64,000 bases of DNA. It comes from Symmachiella dynata. Its GTDB lineage: Bacteria; Planctomycetota; Planctomycetia; Planctomycetales; Planctomycetaceae. The translations under genes were made by a program, and so were the position numbers. Location of the stretch: NCBI RefSeq assembly GCF_007747995.1, contig NZ_CP036276.1:688001-752000 (forward strand), read 5' to 3'. Positions 11,468-20,281 of this stretch are shown piece after piece. The notes beneath the pieces are model-generated. The model did not search any database. It saw only the letters and a program-made list of their open reading frames with translations, and was not told where the DNA came from. Numbering within the stretch: position 1 is the stretch's first letter; each line of letters begins with the position of its first letter.

Positions 11468-11577
11468 CTGTGTAACCGCCGTGCGCCACAAATTTGCATT
11501 GCAGGCACAACATTACGAGCCAATGAATTTTACACCTACCGACCAAGGTCCTTCGAATTAGACGCCTGGAGAGATTG

Positions 11578-14037
11578 ATGCGGTATCCCATTGTGAACCT
11601 CCGTCGCAAATCCCATCACCTCTTGACGGTCTCGGTCGGTGTATTGGCTCGTTGCGGAGTCCACTCTCGTTCTCACGCAATATGTCTCATGATGGGGGTT
11701 TTCTTCACTACCGGGTGCCAAAACCAGCCCAGTGACGCGACGCCTAATGAAAGTCCGAAAAAACAAGCTCCTGTTTCGGACCGCCAACCAAAAGAACAAG
11801 ACTCCCCGAAGATAAATACAGACAGCCCACCCGATGTCTCCGAAACAATCTCGCGCGACCTGAAATTCGTCCCCGATTACGCGCTGGCTGTCGCCGTCAT
11901 GCGGCCCACTCAGATGTTGGAAATACCTGACGTGGCCACTTTTCCCGGTGTTGACCTTCAGGGCGGCAACCCAATCAAGCCAAGCAATGTCGAACGATGC
12001 GCGCTAGTGCTCTTACCCGATAGCGGAAAATATTTTGACGGTCGTTCGGGGGGGAACGGGTTGACTCTCGGCTTTGTCGTCGAAATGAACGTTGACGCAC
12101 CGCAACAGAAACTTGTCAATCAACTGAGTCCTGGAGCGGAACGTGCGAAAGGCAAGGAAGACATTTATTGGCCGCGAGAGGTCAGTTATGAGCAACTTTC
12201 CATCGCCTTCCCCGATAAGAAAACCATGGTTGCGGCGTTTGGAACAGTTGCAATGCTTGAAATGCTCAATCTGGAGAAACGGCCGCAACAAGACAGCCGC
12301 CTATTTAAGGCCTATCGCCAGAACGACCCACAAGCTCAATTTGCAGCAGCGATCGATGTCGATCGGCTGAGGCATTTTTACGATCTCGCCAACACGCAAC
12401 TTAGCGACAAATCTGATTTCGCCTCCAACATTTTATTGAGTCTTTCGCATCGCACGAAGACGGCAAGTCTATCGTGGGATATCTCCCGCCCAGATGGTTT
12501 TTCGCTCCAACTGGATACCGATGGTGATGCAACAGTCGCGAAAGAACAGGCGTTGCAACTCCTCGCGGCGACACAGACTGCGGTCGAGAACACTCAACAG
12601 TATCTGATTGATGAATTAGGGACCGGCCAACAAACAGAGATTACCGAAGTGACACGTTCCCTATCCAACATGGTGGAACCCTTGGAGCCGGAAATGAACG
12701 AGGCCACTGCTATCGTCAACAGCCACAAATTCCCGGTGGCGAACGAGACCTTGCAGCGGATTGCTAAACTCGCAGCCTACCAGGTCGCTGTACTCCGCAA
12801 ACGGGCAATGCGATTTCAGACATCCTATGCGTTCGCTATCCTCGGATTGCAGATGCACAATTACAATGATGTCTATGCAAAACTTCCACAAAACATTGTC
12901 TCAGACGATGGCAAATTGTTGTTAAGTTGGCGCGTTAACCTCCTGCCATATCTAGGAGAATTTGGCGGGTCTGAAGAAGTCAAGCTTTACAAGAAGTTTC
13001 ACCTGGACGAACCATGGGACAGCCCGCACAACAAGCCATTGAGCGAGCAAATGCCCAAGATTTTTCGCACCCGCGATTCTACTCCAGACGCGAACGTCAC
13101 CCATCTCCAGGCCGTGACGGGGCCGGGGACAGTGTTTGGGGAAGGTATTGAAAAGTTCGAGCAAATCACCGATGGACTGCCCAATACCTTGGCGTTCATT
13201 GAAACACAGGAACCCGTCATTTGGACCAAGCCGGAAGATTTCGAATTTGATCACGATCAGCCCCACAATGGTCTGAGACCGGGCGAAGCATTGGGAGTCC
13301 TGTTCAATGGGCAACGCGTGGAATTAAAACCGGAAACCGATGATGAAATGATTCGTCACATAGCTTTGTTTGATGATGGCGGACAATTCGATGTGGAAAG
13401 CATTTGGTGGAAACGCTCTGGATCACACACCGTCGAACCCAAACAACGCAAAGCTGGAGATCCCGATCTTTTATTGGAGGTCGTACAAGACGGCATGCGA
13501 GACGAAAAACGTGCTGCTTTGAACCGCCTGACAGACTATGATCTTAAATTAAAGCGAAGCGATGCAAAAAAAGTCGTCGACGGACTCTTGCCGCTCGTCA
13601 AAACAAACGACCCAAACCTCAGGGGGTGGGTTTTAGAAGTGTTGGCCAAGTGGGCTAAACGCGGCAAACTGGATTGGAAGCAGGTTGAACCGCTATTCGA
13701 CGACCCCTACGAGCAAAATCGTTGGCAGGTCTTTAAAATTTTAGGGGCATCCGGCGATCCACAAGTGGTGCCAATTCTACTGAAGGGACGCCCTGAAGAC
13801 ACCAGAATTCGCTGGAATGTCATTTATGAACGGTTAGGCAAGGTTGCTGTTGAAGGCGCCTTGCCTTTGCTAAAGAGTGCTGACGAGGAGTTGCGTTTCA
13901 AGGCCTGCATCGTGATTGCTAATGAGGGCGATAAGTCGCAAGTTCCTCAATTGCGACCATTACTTGAGGATGATGCAGAACGCGTTCGCAATATGGCCAA
14001 AAAGGCAATCGAACGGTTAGAGAACCCGGAAGAATGA
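11578..14037 (+). CDS. Large lipoprotein with DUF1559-like region and C-terminal HEAT-like repeats
   Basis: 819 residues from the ATG at 11578, preceded by GGAGA at a good distance; a TTG one codon upstream is not needed. A hydrophobic stretch ends in FFTTGC (Cys near 47), a lipobox with an unusually long N-terminal lead. A Pro/Lys/Ser-rich linker follows. Residues about 415-580 contain LQMHNYNDVYAKLP, WRVNLLPYLGE and LDEPWDSPHN, features of the DUF1559 domain that in planctomycetes is normally attached to a prepilin-type leader. Residues about 640-815 form alpha-helical HEAT/PBS-like repeats. No enzyme motif. Likely a surface or periplasmic protein; function unknown. Confidence 0.8.
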   Translation: MRYPIVNLRRKSHHLLTVSVGVLARCGVHSRSHAICLMMGVFFTTGCQNQPSDATPNESPKKQAPVSDRQPKEQDSPKINTDSPPDVSETISRDLKFVPDYALAVAVMRPTQMLEIPDVATFPGVDLQGGNPIKPSNVERCALVLLPDSGKYFDGRSGGNGLTLGFVVEMNVDAPQQKLVNQLSPGAERAKGKEDIYWPREVSYEQLSIAFPDKKTMVAAFGTVAMLEMLNLEKRPQQDSRLFKAYRQNDPQAQFAAAIDVDRLRHFYDLANTQLSDKSDFASNILLSLSHRTKTASLSWDISRPDGFSLQLDTDGDATVAKEQALQLLAATQTAVENTQQYLIDELGTGQQTEITEVTRSLSNMVEPLEPEMNEATAIVNSHKFPVANETLQRIAKLAAYQVAVLRKRAMRFQTSYAFAILGLQMHNYNDVYAKLPQNIVSDDGKLLLSWRVNLLPYLGEFGGSEEVKLYKKFHLDEPWDSPHNKPLSEQMPKIFRTRDSTPDANVTHLQAVTGPGTVFGEGIEKFEQITDGLPNTLAFIETQEPVIWTKPEDFEFDHDQPHNGLRPGEALGVLFNGQRVELKPETDDEMIRHIALFDDGGQFDVESIWWKRSGSHTVEPKQRKAGDPDLLLEVVQDGMRDEKRAALNRLTDYDLKLKRSDAKKVVDGLLPLVKTNDPNLRGWVLEVLAKWAKRGKLDWKQVEPLFDDPYEQNRWQVFKILGASGDPQVVPILLKGRPEDTRIRWNVIYERLGKVAVEGALPLLKSADEELRFKACIVIANEGDKSQVPQLRPLLEDDAERVRNMAKKAIERLENPEE

Positions 14038-14067
14038 ATTTCTGACACTCCAACACCTCGCCACAGC

Positions 14068-14808: not shown

Positions 14809-14940
14809 GCGCTGGGTTCCTTGAAGAGACTAGCGAGGCGTTCGGCGGAAAAAATAACACAACCCGTCCGCCGCTGGTAGACCATCCTGCGCCGTGAGTT
14901 CAAATACAATTGTGCTGATTGCTGCCTGTTGACACGCGCG

Positions 14941-15110
14941 GAGATGCCGCGTAGTCTGAATTGCGGGGGGCGGCACTTCAGTTTGGCGAATGCGGAACTG
15001 CGGTTCCGGCCGTTCGTCTCTTCGGGGTCACCCCGGGGATTTTTAGCAAACGTTGGCATTTCGTCGCGCGAGCTTGAGTACGCTCATCACGTACATCCGC
15101 TCGCGCCGCA
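14941..15110 (+). ncRNA. Structured leader upstream of the reverse transcriptase, candidate msr-msd-like RNA
   Basis: On the plus strand four stems follow each other: TGCCGC/GCGGCA (14945-14950 with 14970-14975), CGGAAC/GTTCCG (14993-15008), CGGGG/CCCCG (15023-15035, followed by GGGATTTTT), and an extended hairpin GCGCGAGC/GCTCGCGC (15066-15073 with 15099-15106) that contains an inner GTACG/CGTAC stem with a 7-base loop. TTTTTAGC at 15040-15047 resembles the T-A-G-C context of retron branching guanosines. The position directly upstream of the RT fits a retron RNA, but no convincing a1/a2 inverted repeat was found (only GACAC 14931-14935 with GTGTC 15125-15129), and the divergent methyltransferase promoter shares the region. 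Confidence 0.3.
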
Positions 15111-15141
15111 CGAGACTCGGTGAGGTGTCGCTCCCCTTCTC

Positions 15142-16527
15142 ATGACTGATGTTCGTGCGGTAGCCCGTGGATTGGCGACGGTGTTTCTCTCGGGCGAATG
15201 GACGCGGGCCGGCATCACGCAGCGCGTGCAGACCGCTCTCGAACAACGCGTCAAATCGCGGGCGGTCGATCTGCTGGTCGGCCGCATTCTTCGCGCCTGT
15301 GGCGAGCAACCGCCGCCGCCGACACTGCACAAGCTCACCAAACTGATCCTCAGCGACCCCGTTTTTCACAAATACATCGCCGAAGAGGACGGCTATCCCA
15401 GACGGCTGAACCTGGCCCACTTGCCACCGCCGGTAATGGCACCCGCGCCGGCGATTCCCAGCGACTGGCAACTGCCGACGATTCTCACGCCGGGAGCATT
15501 GGCCGATTGGTTGGGGCTTTCGTCGCCGGAACTTGAATGGTTTGCCGATTGCCATGGCCGGGAACGGCAGCGAGCGCGCGAGGCCTTGCGGCATTACCGT
15601 TATCGTTGGATTCCCAAGCGGACCGGCGGGCGACGATTGTTGGAGATTCCCAAGCAACGACTCAAAGACCTGCAACGCACGATTCTGCAGTGGATTCTGG
15701 GCCGCATCGAGCCGCACGCCGCCGCACACGCATTCCGCCGGGGGCGTTCGATTGCCTCATTTGCCCAGCCGCACAGTGCAAAGCGAGTCGTATTGCGGAT
15801 CGACCTACGACACTTCTTTCCGTCGGTACAACCATCGCGGATTAAGAGTCTGTTTCGGACCGTGGGTTATCCCGAAGCGGTCGCCCGGCTGTTGTGCGGG
15901 CTGTGTACGAATTCGGTGCCGGACGACATCCTGGGCGTGGCTGAACAACAATTCGCCACCAATGAGCGCCAACCTGTCGAGCGACTTTACGCGGCGGCGC
16001 ATCTTCCACAAGGCGCGCCGACGTCGCCCGCATTGGCCAATCTAGCAGCTAGGCGGTTGGATGGCCGTTTGTCCGGTCTGGCGACCGCCGTCGGTGGCGA
16101 CTACACACGCTATGCCGACGACCTTGTCTTTTCCGGGGGACGCGCGTTGGAACGCTGCCTCCCACGATTCCGCACATTGCTGTTGGCGATCGTACTCGAC
16201 GAAGGCTTTAGCATCCGCCACCGCAAAACCGCAGTCATGCCCGCCGGCGGACGCCAACAGGTCGCCGGGATTGTGGTCAATGAACACCCCAATCTCAACC
16301 GCAAAGAATTCGACCGCCTCAAAGCGATACTATACAACTGCGCCCACCACGGCCCCCGCTCCCAACTCACCGGGTGCCTCCCACAACCCAACGAACCCCC
16401 GACAGAAGCGACGCTCGAACAATTACGAAGTCACCTAACGGGCAAGGTCGCGTTTGTGCGGATGATCAACCCGGCCAAGGGGGAGCGGTTGTCTAAGTTA
16501 TTGCGGGAGATTGATTGGGTAGGGTAG
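15142..16527 (+). CDS. Retron-type reverse transcriptase (myxobacterial-retron-like)
   Basis: 461 residues. An N-terminal extension of about 110 residues precedes the RT fingers/palm. Palm motifs: VLRIDLRHFFPS with Asp221, LPQGAPTSPAL (288-298), and YADD at 324-327 with the catalytic Asp pair. GRSIASFAQPH before motif A corresponds to the retron NAxxH region (here FAQPH), and QVAGIVVN corresponds to the retron VTG region (here VAG). The section ALADWLGLSSPELEWFA before the RT core and the end FVRMINPAKGERL recall, from memory, the RT of Myxococcus retron Mx162. Group II intron maturase or endonuclease domains are absent. Retron RTs make msDNA and many act in phage defence; that role here is inference. 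The gene is convergent with three minus-strand accessory genes. Confidence 0.88.
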   Translation: MTDVRAVARGLATVFLSGEWTRAGITQRVQTALEQRVKSRAVDLLVGRILRACGEQPPPPTLHKLTKLILSDPVFHKYIAEEDGYPRRLNLAHLPPPVMAPAPAIPSDWQLPTILTPGALADWLGLSSPELEWFADCHGRERQRAREALRHYRYRWIPKRTGGRRLLEIPKQRLKDLQRTILQWILGRIEPHAAAHAFRRGRSIASFAQPHSAKRVVLRIDLRHFFPSVQPSRIKSLFRTVGYPEAVARLLCGLCTNSVPDDILGVAEQQFATNERQPVERLYAAAHLPQGAPTSPALANLAARRLDGRLSGLATAVGGDYTRYADDLVFSGGRALERCLPRFRTLLLAIVLDEGFSIRHRKTAVMPAGGRQQVAGIVVNEHPNLNRKEFDRLKAILYNCAHHGPRSQLTGCLPQPNEPPTEATLEQLRSHLTGKVAFVRMINPAKGERLSKLLREIDWVG

Positions 16528-16624
16528 GGGACCGGTGGTGTGATTGGCAGTCGCTACCTTGCTCGGGTGAATCTATAGGAGCCATCTACGTCATTAGTGT
16601 TGACGCATACATAAGAGAGTGTAT

Positions 16625-16939
16625 TTATCTTCCAGGCAATAACTCTTGTATGGTCTCATATAGTTCCTCTCGCAACTTCCATTGCAATTGGTGGAATTCA
16701 ATATCTGTCATTCGGTCACATTTTGGCGTTAAGTAGATATCTCCCAATAAACCCTTGGCACTAACAGTTACTTGCAACTCTTTTAGAATTGCGACGAAAG
16801 CGTCAGATCCTCGTTTTGCTCGGCTTAAAGCAGCACTTTTATTTTTATACCATGATGACCAATGTGCCGCGCCCTCCCAGTCGCTTTCATCCAAGAGATC
16901 AATGATTTGTCCCAATGTTTTGTAAATTGATTTTCTCAA
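16625..16939 (-). CDS. Small protein, not recognised
   Basis: 104 residues, acidic and helical, with no signal peptide or membrane segment. Trp residues cluster in DWEGAAHWSSWY (about 20-31) and the C-terminal third (HQLQWKLREELYETIQELL) is amphipathic. The size and composition are like small immunity or stress-type proteins, but no family motif is visible and no function is proposed. The DNA is visibly richer in A+T than the flanking RT gene, which is one sign of separate origin. It ends about 100 bp after the convergent RT gene and lies upstream of a 68-bp repeat copy. Confidence 0.6.
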   Translation of the reverse strand: MRKSIYKTLGQIIDLLDESDWEGAAHWSSWYKNKSAALSRAKRGSDAFVAILKELQVTVSAKGLLGDIYLTPKCDRMTDIEFHQLQWKLREELYETIQELLPGR

Positions 16940-17018
16940 CTAAGTGGTACCTCATCAATCATGCGCAAAACATTGTCAGCGTTAAGATCAGCTGGGAACA
17001 GCACCTGCTAGTTCAGAA

Positions 17019-17086
17019 GTCCGGCTGTGCCGGACGAAACCGCGGTCAGTTGAAATCCAATTCGCAACGCCCGGTACAACCGGCCC
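17019..17086. repeat. 68-bp direct repeat, copy 1
   Basis: Matches 17624-17691 with only two mismatches in 68 bases and the same orientation. Each copy contains two hairpins: GTCCGGC-tgt-GCCGGAC and CCGGT-aca-ACCGG. This copy lies between two unrecognised small genes. Confidence 0.9.
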
Positions 17087-17139
17087 TGCCTTGCTGCGTT
17101 GTCAAAAACGACCGAAGGGACGGGCAGCGACAAGGCTTA

Positions 17140-17547
17140 TTATTGCTCACTGAGTGTATGCAAGAATGCAATGTCGACGTCAGTTGTCTTTCGGATGTAC
17201 TGTGCCCCATTGGAGCCATTGTAAACGATTGTTGAGGGCAAGCAATTCAGGGACGTTCCATTTGTTCTTATTAAAATGGATGGGGCATACGTGTTGTAAG
17301 ATGCCTGCCACCAGTGTACTTTTCCATTGTAATCTATCCATCTCCGAACAGTTTCGCACTGATTATCTTTTGGTGTGCTATCGCATAAATTAAAAACGTT
17401 TTGTGTTCCATCATTCTTGCAGACGACGATCTCAACCGGTTTCTGTGTAGAAACCTTGAGTCGCCGAGGAAGTGGACATTGGAATAAGGCAATGATCACA
17501 ACCAGGAATGCTAAGATGCCAAGGGTTTTCTTGAAACGACTACTCAT
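17140..17547 (-). CDS. Small membrane-anchored protein, not recognised
   Basis: 135 residues from the ATG at 17547; the frame is open further upstream to 17748, but that part lies in the 68-bp repeat and beyond it in the neighbouring gene, so the shorter start is preferred (an in-frame ATG at 17568 is possible). One N-terminal transmembrane segment is clear (ILAFLVVIIALF, about residues 10-24), followed by Cys-containing extracytoplasmic sequence (CPLPRR, VVCKND, NLCDST, DNQCET, LNCLPS) whose five or more cysteines could form disulfides. No family recognised. The gene is bracketed by the two copies of the 68-bp repeat. Confidence 0.55.
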   Translation of the reverse strand: MSSRFKKTLGILAFLVVIIALFQCPLPRRLKVSTQKPVEIVVCKNDGTQNVFNLCDSTPKDNQCETVRRWIDYNGKVHWWQASYNTYAPSILIRTNGTSLNCLPSTIVYNGSNGAQYIRKTTDVDIAFLHTLSEQ

Positions 17548-17623
17548 GTGAAATTGTCCAATGGCCATCAGTTCGCTGTTGAAGTTTTGCCAAGCAATCC
17601 GCTCCGAAACTCCAGTCCAGTAC

Positions 17624-17691
17624 GTCCGGCTGTGCCGGACGAAACCGCGGTCAGTTGAAATCCAATTCGCAACGGCCGGTACAACCGGGCC
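17624..17691. repeat. 68-bp direct repeat, copy 2
   Basis: Second copy of the element at 17019-17086, in the same orientation, with the two differences near its 3' end. It lies between the stop of the exonuclease-like gene and the start of the small membrane protein gene. Confidence 0.9.
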
Positions 17692-17699
17692 TAATCTTG

Positions 17700-18404
17700 C
17701 TACATCCAATCCATGAACTTGGATCGTGGTTTGGGATTGTCCATCCAAGAGGTATCCGGTTCGGGTAGACTCATCGCGGATTCAACATTCATCCATCCAG
17801 AAGCGAATCGCATATCACGTACACTTCCCTTTCGGGTTACCCATCGAAATACGCGTTTTTTTTCGCACGCTCGAGCAAGTTCCAAGGTCGTTCGTACATC
17901 CTGTGACACGTAGTCGAAAACCTCATTGAATTTTCTATCAGCCCAAAACTGTGGAGACAGGTTTTGAGGAACGGATGACGATTTTCCAGACAAGCCCATA
18001 CCTCGCGCAGCGGGATCGAGACCAATGGGGTACCCAAGTTGGCAGAAGGCATGATACATCATATCCACGTGCCCAATTGCGAGCTGTTTGCATTCATCGA
18101 ACATTCCCGATTCTTCGGCGAGAATGTCAAAATCAAAATTCAGACCGTTCCATGTCAGGACAGTCAGTCCATTTTTCGTTGATTCTGTGAGAAAACGAAC
18201 CAAGTCACCAGCGTCCTCTCGGCTCATCCGATCGGCGGGAGTATCTTCATCTGACTTGCTGTGCCAGAGCCGGGGTTGGTCATCCAAGCTGGATAACGTC
18301 GCTGCGCACGCAATTCCCAACGGCCGATGAGCCTTCAGATCATGAACATCCTTGGGGAGAATCTTGGCCGTTTCAATATCGAATGCGAGATAATTACGTT
18401 TCAT
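17700..18404 (-). CDS. DEDD-type 3'-5' exonuclease-like protein (RNase H-like fold)
   Basis: 234 residues. Exo motif I is FDIETA (Asp9, Glu11), motif II is TWNGLNFDFDIL (Asp91 or Asp93), motif III is DYVSQDVRTT (Tyr165, Asp169), which together give the DEDDy arrangement of DnaQ/PolB-type proofreading and RNA-processing exonucleases. No polymerase or helicase domain is fused. It would trim nucleic acid from 3' ends in the cytoplasm; substrate is unknown. It lies about 1.2 kb from the reverse transcriptase in convergent orientation, so a shared function is possible but not shown. Base composition is more A+T-rich than housekeeping genes nearby. Confidence 0.75.
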   Translation of the reverse strand: MKRNYLAFDIETAKILPKDVHDLKAHRPLGIACAATLSSLDDQPRLWHSKSDEDTPADRMSREDAGDLVRFLTESTKNGLTVLTWNGLNFDFDILAEESGMFDECKQLAIGHVDMMYHAFCQLGYPIGLDPAARGMGLSGKSSSVPQNLSPQFWADRKFNEVFDYVSQDVRTTLELARACEKKRVFRWVTRKGSVRDMRFASGWMNVESAMSLPEPDTSWMDNPKPRSKFMDWM

Positions 18405-18464
18405 TGTTGCTCAATCCTTCCCATTAATAGTGAACGCCAAACCGTTATTTCATGGAGTTTATCC

Positions 18465-19882: not shown

Positions 19883-20281
19883 GCTTTGTTCCTTTTTTGC
19901 GCTGGGTGGTGAGTGGGTGTTTATTTGTTGTGCGAAAACCCTCACCCCGGCCCTCTCCCAGGGGGAGAGGGAGAAATGGTGCGACCTCTCGCAGCGGGAA
20001 AGGTGTGGGGAATTGTTTTGAGTTCAATGCGCGGCAGCTTAATGGATGCGGCTGGGAGGGGACAACCGTGGGGAGGTTGTATCTTGAAATCGGGCGTGTC
20101 GCGATCTTTTCCCTGACCGGCAAAATCTGCCGGTTCTTTGGTCGGGACTCGCCTTGTTGGGAATGGGGCGCGTCGCTATTCTCCCGCCACTTCTACATAC
20201 TCTCTCAACTCTTCTCTCCTCTCAAAAGAGGCCACGGTTTGTGGGGACTGATTGGCAGTCCCTGCGAAAATGCTGTGGTCG
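19883..20281. other. Intergenic region between divergent genes, contains one repeat hairpin
   Basis: The gap holds an intergenic repeat at 19938-19974: the text CCCTCACCCCGG followed by the hairpin CCCTCTCCC-agg-GGGAGAGGG. Related copies lie at 27810-27855 and 28090-28135. The start of the plus-strand oxidoreductase is uncertain within 20252-20288. No other element could be recognised. Confidence 0.6.

Follow-up and report, generated by a model that had tools for sequence, protein, structure and literature searches.

Closely related systems are well enough described to give a frame of comparison. According to the part of the review PMC6868368 available to us, a retron RNA has complementary ends of 8-30 nt and one msd hairpin, its msr holds 1-3 hairpins of 7-10 bp with loops of 3-10 nt, and the priming G lies at the inner end of the 5' arm. 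The same part of the review states that the reverse transcriptases (RTs) of Ec86 and Ec73 bind a hairpin of 8-9 bp with a three-base loop, that among 16 validated retron RTs two deviate at the NAxxH motif and two at VTG, and that Mx162, whose RT carries an N-terminal extension, groups with cyanobacterial RTs. In addition, some retrons show no clear association with effector genes (PMC8867640, in the part available).

Here, a locus in a 64,000-nt stretch of planctomycete DNA (the window) is compared with these systems. Coordinates are positions within the window unless a genome or locus label is given, and G000 denotes its own genome. The locus is a complete but untyped retron, consisting of an msr-msd RNA (14965-15136) followed by its RT, and we put the probability that it is a retron that makes msDNA at about 0.85. 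A sequence-only reading had already called the RT retron-type, and both the placement of the RT and a conserved upstream RNA with retron anatomy bear this out.

Anatomy of the upstream RNA

The msr-msd-like RNA lies directly 5' of the RT gene, whose ATG at 15142 comes 5 nt past a2 (Table 1). The minimum free energy (MFE) of its fold is -93.3 kcal/mol, with z scores of -6.49 and -6.27 (200 shuffles each), and its ends pair in a 16-bp a1/a2 stem (14965-14980 with 15121-15136). By position and fold, the RNA fits the rules in the available part of PMC6868368 in stem length, msr hairpins, single msd and placement of the G; the departure is msr hairpin 1, which at 14 bp in the fold exceeds 7-10 bp. 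G14981 is called the candidate branching G on the basis of the priming-G rule as that part of the review gives it. A G following a1 also occurs in relatives, in contexts such as AAGC, GAGC and CAGG (seen by eye, uncounted), and a stem resembling a1/a2, made of other letters, stands at a similar place in most of 78 related loci as judged by eye.

Table 1. Positions of the features discussed in the text (window coordinates unless a locus label precedes them)
Feature	Position	Strand	Basis or comment
Accessory segment (ncRNA, RT, 104-aa ORF and more)	14904..17608	.	missing from the collinear site in G001 (same genus), apart from one repeat copy
a1 arm (GGGGGGCGGCACUUCA)	14965..14980	+	5' half of closing stem; pairs with a2 in MFE fold
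Candidate branching G, context CAG-U	14981	+	unpaired, directly 3' of a1 (fold)
msr hairpin 1	14985..15018	+	fold; 14 bp; lies outside the consensus structures
R2 covariance-model match, hairpin 2 to msd end	15018..15120	+	76.2 bits
msr hairpin 2 (mostly GGGGNNACCCC in the family)	15019..15039	+	9-bp stem, 3-nt loop UCA; strict scan, models R1 and R2
msd hairpin, template of the predicted msDNA	15059..15115	+	fold; covariation; within R2 match
a2 arm (UGAGGUGUCGCUCCCC)	15121..15136	+	fold; outer-helix covariation
Retron-type RT	15142..16527	+	ATG ORF, 461 aa; helical N-terminal domain and RT domain
Downstream membrane protein	L058 6143-6907; L194 7529-8341; L201 7943-8854		directly 3' of second-copy RT

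Conservation and covariation of the RNA

Alignments of upstream DNA within close groups reveal a common hairpin, GGGGNNNCCCC, before the RT in at least the window's genus (second copy), Gimesia, a pair of planctomycete bins, Thiodiazotropha, Verrucomicrobiaceae and Burkholderiaceae. This hairpin, msr hairpin 2 of the window, is the signature of the RNA family. A strict scan, which asked for pairing at 7 or more of 8 stem positions and for a 3-nt loop ending in A, found it upstream of 76 of the 88 RTs in the clade that contains the window RT (placed below) versus 1 of 58 other RTs; mononucleotide-shuffled upstream sequences of the clade gave a mean of 4.1 and a maximum of 11 of 88, and the sole outside hit, L139, is chance-like. 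The strict hit of L062 at -635 is probably also due to chance, because the covariance model R2 described below puts its RNA elsewhere. For this actinobacterial RT, the R2 match (684-785) is located about 3.9 kb upstream and does not adjoin the gene.

Of the 12 clade loci with no strict hit, R2 matches four (L011, L066, L070 and L136), and L049 and L135 carry variant hairpins, both being rows in the R2 training set. Among the 88 clade loci, L069 has a weak partial match to the model R1 alone (17.7 bits, E 0.048), L137 has a regex hairpin alone, and the upstream sequence of L067 is too short for the RNA scan. By the scans used, no RNA was found close upstream in L002, L012 and L092, the first two of which appear to have the RNA elsewhere in the genome.

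Two covariance models were used. The genome of the window contains exactly two RVT_1 matches, and R1 was built from the RNA family of the second copy. At genome scale, R1 did not find the window RNA, which scored 16.1 bits (E 0.12) across 97 sources; outside the clade it gave one partial match (L086, 20.2 bits, E 0.012) that is absent with R2. Since R1 was too distant for the window at this scale, R2 was built from 31 window-like RNAs with the window excluded. It matches the window RNA with E 4.5e-13, and across the 7.77-Mb genome this RNA ranks first (E 5.4e-11), the RNA fronting the second RT ranks second (E 6.1e-4), and rank 3 is noise (E 2.0). On 76 loci outside its training, R2 detected, at E <= 0.01, 18 of the 27 that belong to the RNA clade or are its partial relative L153, the misses among the 27 including L002 and L031, which are one locus; it matched 0 of the 49 other loci at that threshold (best L088, 0.11). 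At E <= 1e-6 with strict filters, R2 hit 4 genomes in a sample of 199 from the phylum, namely its own genome and three with the RNA beside an RT, at least one of the three being in the R2 training set. This implies that in the phylum the window-like copy is rare or has a patchy spread, or that it often diverges too far to pass this cut.

The predicted pairs also covary. In 28 window-like RNAs, including that of the window, aligned to R1, 96.9% of cells are paired versus 43-48% when the pairing partners are slid, and in the same fitted alignment double-sided changes occur at 29 of 32 base pairs, at 7 of 7 modelled pairs of the msd hairpin and at 14 of 14 pairs of the outer a1/a2 helix. The rows of this kind of alignment (A5, with the window copy, and A7, without it; 29 and 28 loci given, 28 and 27 aligned, L003 missed) were picked from R1 matches, so these pair counts lean towards the structure. 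For 20 second-copy RNAs aligned by MAFFT without structure, 95.3% of cells are paired versus 40-45% when slid, and 21 of 32 pairs show double-sided changes. RNAalifold run on the raw MAFFT alignment A1 of 26 window-like RNAs recovered hairpin 2 and the msd hairpin; a1/a2 was not recovered from A1 and was recovered in single sequences and with the model alignment, and we think that MAFFT misaligned the ends in A1. The anatomy of the RNA, its covariation and its association with the RT are results of computation. The search of homologous loci for an upstream RNA, which the sequence-only reading had put forward as a check, turned up an RNA that is conserved, covaries and has retron anatomy.

At gathering scores, nothing in the window matched Rfam; there was no match in 14810-15200 even at E up to 5, and nothing retron-like in 16 related loci, where one partial tRNA was seen. 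The hosts of the RNA belong to at least five phyla: Planctomycetota, Pseudomonadota, Verrucomicrobiota, Actinomycetota and, by one record, Sumerlaeota. The RT of L050, from a metagenome bin labelled Bordetella parapertussis, groups with planctomycete RTs, and a mislabel or a gene transfer is possible. Two tandem retron RNAs precede one RT at G206:C274:3931-4400 and, at least as hairpins, at L059 (3740 and 4059).

The second copy and RNAs distant from their RT

The second RT of the genome (L111, L192) is located at G000:C1:4889376-4890662 and has the canonical motifs TNAQPH and VTG, and its RNA (G000:C1:4890925-4891103) precedes the RT match by about 263 nt. Beyond this second retron (G000:C1:4889376-4891103) is a gene for a divergent M50 peptidase. 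Among 101 genomes of the family, R1 detects the RNA in 66 at E <= 0.001. The corresponding RT set comprises 67 genomes, selected by hand with the limit set at a gap in E values (2.5e-89 to 5.5e-87) and second copies omitted; G267, just under this gap, has no R1 match. RNA and RT occur together in 66 of the 67 genomes, the RNA alone in none, and the RT alone in one (G021, with a partial RT frame). This second copy occurs widely in the family and is apparently kept by descent across much of it.

The RNA lies upstream of the RT on the same strand in 59 genomes, with 37-666 nt between it and the RT match. The RNA and RT are on different contigs in four genomes, at positions that would fit contig breaks. 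Three genomes belonging to one genus (G005, G229 and G254) have the RNA (L193, L195 and L197) far from the RT (L194, L196 and L198), at one common other place, and the RT retains its downstream neighbour gene. The unlinked RNAs of G005 and G229 still fold, with z scores of -5.3 and -7.9. A similar case concerns G018, whose window-like RT (L002, the same locus as L031; the nearest-relative locus, 49% identical) had no RNA upstream or linked, and in which the R2 match to a window-like RNA lies on a separate contig (L222 5712-5814, minus strand, z -6.5) that showed no RT in the 12 of its 14 kb read. Apparently, the RNA and RT of G018 are unlinked, a case made weaker by the draft state of the genome (88% complete, 4% contaminated). 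Searches confined to the upstream region of the RT itself would thus miss some retrons.

These loci bear on the idea that the RNA acts in cis as a leader, controlling how the RT gene is translated or transcribed, and that the RT no longer makes msDNA. The position of the RNA directly upstream, with 5 nt between its end and the ATG in the window, is what a leader would look like. However, the RNA persists far from the RT in G005, G229 and G254 (two of the three folded) and stands in full on the RT-free stretch read in G018, where a leader would hardly be kept, and the gap between RNA and RT match varies as given above over the 59 genomes. A leader is thus improbable.

In 9 of 13 RT-bearing neighbourhoods, a membrane protein (255-304 aa, 2-3 hydrophobic segments) is encoded 3' of the second-copy RT. 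Three members had no Pfam or PADLOC match, and the protein is absent in L192 (own genome), L199, L202 and L059. It is possible that this membrane protein is an effector.

Placement of the RT

The motifs that had been read from the sequence are all in place: FAQPH at residues 207-211 in the NAxxH region, YADD at 324-327, and VAG at 374-376 in the VTG region. In a 44-sequence alignment that includes the window RT, H211, Y324-D327 and G376 are invariant, and NAxxH and VTG vary at their N and T, respectively. With FAQPH and VAG, the window RT has degenerate forms of both retron motifs, a point against the retron reading. An extension of about 110 residues had also been proposed, and residues 1-113 indeed have no Pfam match; the AlphaFold2 model (whole-model mean pLDDT 92.7) places helices at residues 4-81. 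Pfam recognizes RVT_1 over residues 157-366 (6e-19) and no other family, in agreement with the proposed lack of an intron maturase or endonuclease domain. The best solved structure by sequence is retron Ec86 (1e-28), and the top Foldseek match of the model is 7v9x, with a TM score of 0.81 on the target.

The PADLOC models RT_other (476 bits) and RT_outgroup (454 bits) match the window RT best and over its full length. Lower scores were obtained with type XIII (324 bits) and III-A (253 bits); an assignment of the window RT to type XIII was considered and rejected, RT_XIII scoring below both RT_outgroup and RT_other. The same pattern holds for 10 scanned members of the window clade, in which RT_other and RT_outgroup outscore RT_XIII. 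Ten RTs outside the clade were also scanned: RT_XIII was the best model for all eight from the sister group described below, L100 was best matched by III-A, and for L109 no model reached the cut used.

A FastTree phylogeny of 147 of the 161 RT loci (13 duplicates and the short row L153 were dropped), rooted by choice on the BPP-1 DGR RT and two LtrA proteins, places the window RT inside a clade of 88 RTs with support 98. For IQ-TREE, 102 of the 147 rows were used, and the 45 others, including the DGR row, were removed by hand (near-duplicates, long branches and row number). The 55 RTs of the window clade kept in this tree again form one group (SH-aLRT 97), and their sister is a group of 33 RTs, mainly from Myxococcota and cyanobacteria (SH-aLRT 81; union 97). 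Judged by these sequence trees, the window clade is sister to the type XIII retron RTs and apart from group II intron and DGR RTs, and the tree proposed earlier as a check thus sets the RT among retron-type RTs. The sequence-only reading had likened the RT to that of Mx162 more than to group II intron RTs. The grouping of Mx162 with cyanobacterial RTs in the available part of PMC6868368 fits this placement, Mx162 itself not being a row of the tree.

Another explanation is that the RT belongs to a different defence system (DRT or UG-like), one in which a structured RNA is used to make a different product, e.g., repeated cDNA. The RTs of DRT2 and DRT10 likewise use structured RNA (PMC12039810 and PMC12632851, in the parts available), and RNA complexes of DRT2 and DRT9 are among the weaker Foldseek matches, going by entry titles. 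Against this, Drt2 (30.7 bits) and Drt3a (18.5 bits) score far below their cut-offs, retron RTs take all of the first 18 Foldseek ranks, group II RTs coming after them, and the a1/a2 stem, the unpaired G at its end and the single template hairpin follow the retron plan. There is little chance that such a system is present here. A group II intron or DGR RT, with which RVT_1 is held in common, is largely refuted, since a branch of support 97 sets the LtrA pair and the long-branched BPP-1 DGR RT apart from the other 144 rows, the LtrA pair is separate again in IQ-TREE, Pfam finds no maturase domain, the group II intron model TIGR04416 gives 54 bits against a cut-off of 300, and the window has no Rfam match.

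Genomic context of the window copy

The window copy is regarded as accessory because it is absent from the collinear site of G001, where the segment from 14904 to 17608 is missing and one copy only of a repeat of about 90 bp remains, with flanks collinear at 91-95% identity. Window positions 11489-14050 and 17702-18464 are likewise missing from G001. The repeat of about 90 bp is direct (17010-17095 and 17609-17701), and its single G001 counterpart corresponds to the right side of the retron-bearing variable segment. A separate, dispersed repeat of about 35-60 bp at 19925-19985 has dozens of scattered matches in G001.

Neighbouring genes were compared over 53 loci, 36 of them window-like, and clusters of at least four loci were considered among the 41 listed. 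Beyond close kin, the clusters among those listed consist of ORFs running antisense to the RT and, at four loci, an ABC ATPase at a distance of 2-4 kb; no convincing linked effector was found among the listed clusters of at least four loci. When 12 neighbour proteins of the window were compared with the RT loci, 10 had no match; the neighbouring trpA matches L023 (61%), and the neighbouring SDR matches L048, L094, L095 and L059 at 28-32%.

Proposed working of the retron

RNA binding, 2'-5' priming, the formation of msDNA and its length are proposed here from known retrons. By this analogy, the RT would recognize the conserved hairpin at 15019-15039, with its 9 bp and 3-nt loop, and would use for priming the 2'-OH of G14981, which the a1/a2 stem holds at its end. 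It would then copy the msd hairpin from about 15120 back to about 15040-15060, and the predicted product is a branched msDNA of some 60-80 nt.

For the accessory copy, the likeliest use by analogy would be anti-phage defence through a guard complex whose effector is not encoded alongside, for which we see an even chance. The effector might be encoded elsewhere, or it might be the RT's own N-terminal helical domain. Since no effector is evident, the defence role is a guess by analogy, one that gains strength for the window copy from its patchy, accessory spread and is weaker for the second copy, which may have a housekeeping role.

More speculatively, the clade could form a retron type in its own right, with its own RNA as the defining feature, and with the planctomycete second copy a domesticated, vertically kept housekeeping pair of RNA and RT that has no dedicated linked toxin, of which both parts are retained in some lineages at different loci, and whose msDNA plays a role other than abortive infection; we advance this as a tentative view, with the odds somewhat against it. 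In practical terms, RTs left as "other" or "outgroup" in a defence database gain a defined RNA partner and become testable as retrons. The second copy, apparently inherited across much of the family, provides a route to the question of whether retrons do more than kill phage-infected cells, and RNAs unlinked from their RT may suit trans-acting tools for DNA production in cells.

Comparison with known systems

The window RNA is undescribed in the available parts of PMC8867640, PMC12548924, PMC9252829, PMC12632851, PMC5541045 and PMC6868368; the main retron classification lies outside these sources, and a prior description is possible. The sequence-only reading had suggested that, if msDNA is made, this may be a defence or regulatory system "not yet described in this phylum", a suggestion that may not hold in full: PADLOC RT models already match the family. 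In particular, RT_other (PDLC02949) and RT_outgroup (PDLC03740, described as "retron") match the window RT along its whole length, including the N-terminal domain, but differ in being RT models with no named type. Covariance models of msr-msd RNAs also exist in PADLOC (PMC9252829, in the part available), and they may or may not cover the window RNA.

The type XIII retrons (PADLOC RT_XIII; here mostly Myxococcota and cyanobacteria) resemble the window clade in being the sister RT clade and in having the N-terminal extension. Unlike in the window clade, no RT row outside it has the strict hairpin save the chance-like L139. The myxobacterial retrons Mx162, Sa163, Mx65 and Ne144 have an extended N-terminus, and the window RT is likened to theirs by the description in the available part of PMC6868368. 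As that part of the review gives it, the context of the priming G is CAGC in Mx162 and Sa163 and GAGC in Mx65, compared to CAGU in the window RNA. Mx162, Sa163, Mx65 and Ne144 are retained family-wide in one bacterial group according to the same part, and this is apparently so for the second copy.

Ec86 (Eco1) is the nearest solved structure to the window RT by both sequence and fold. The two RTs share 24% identity over the fold alignment, and the window RT differs in its extra N-terminal helical domain and in a locus where no linked effector was seen. The likeness extends to the RNA: in the available part of PMC6868368, the Ec86 RT binds a hairpin of 8 bp with a 3-nt loop, and hairpin 2 of the window RNA has 9 bp and a 3-nt loop.
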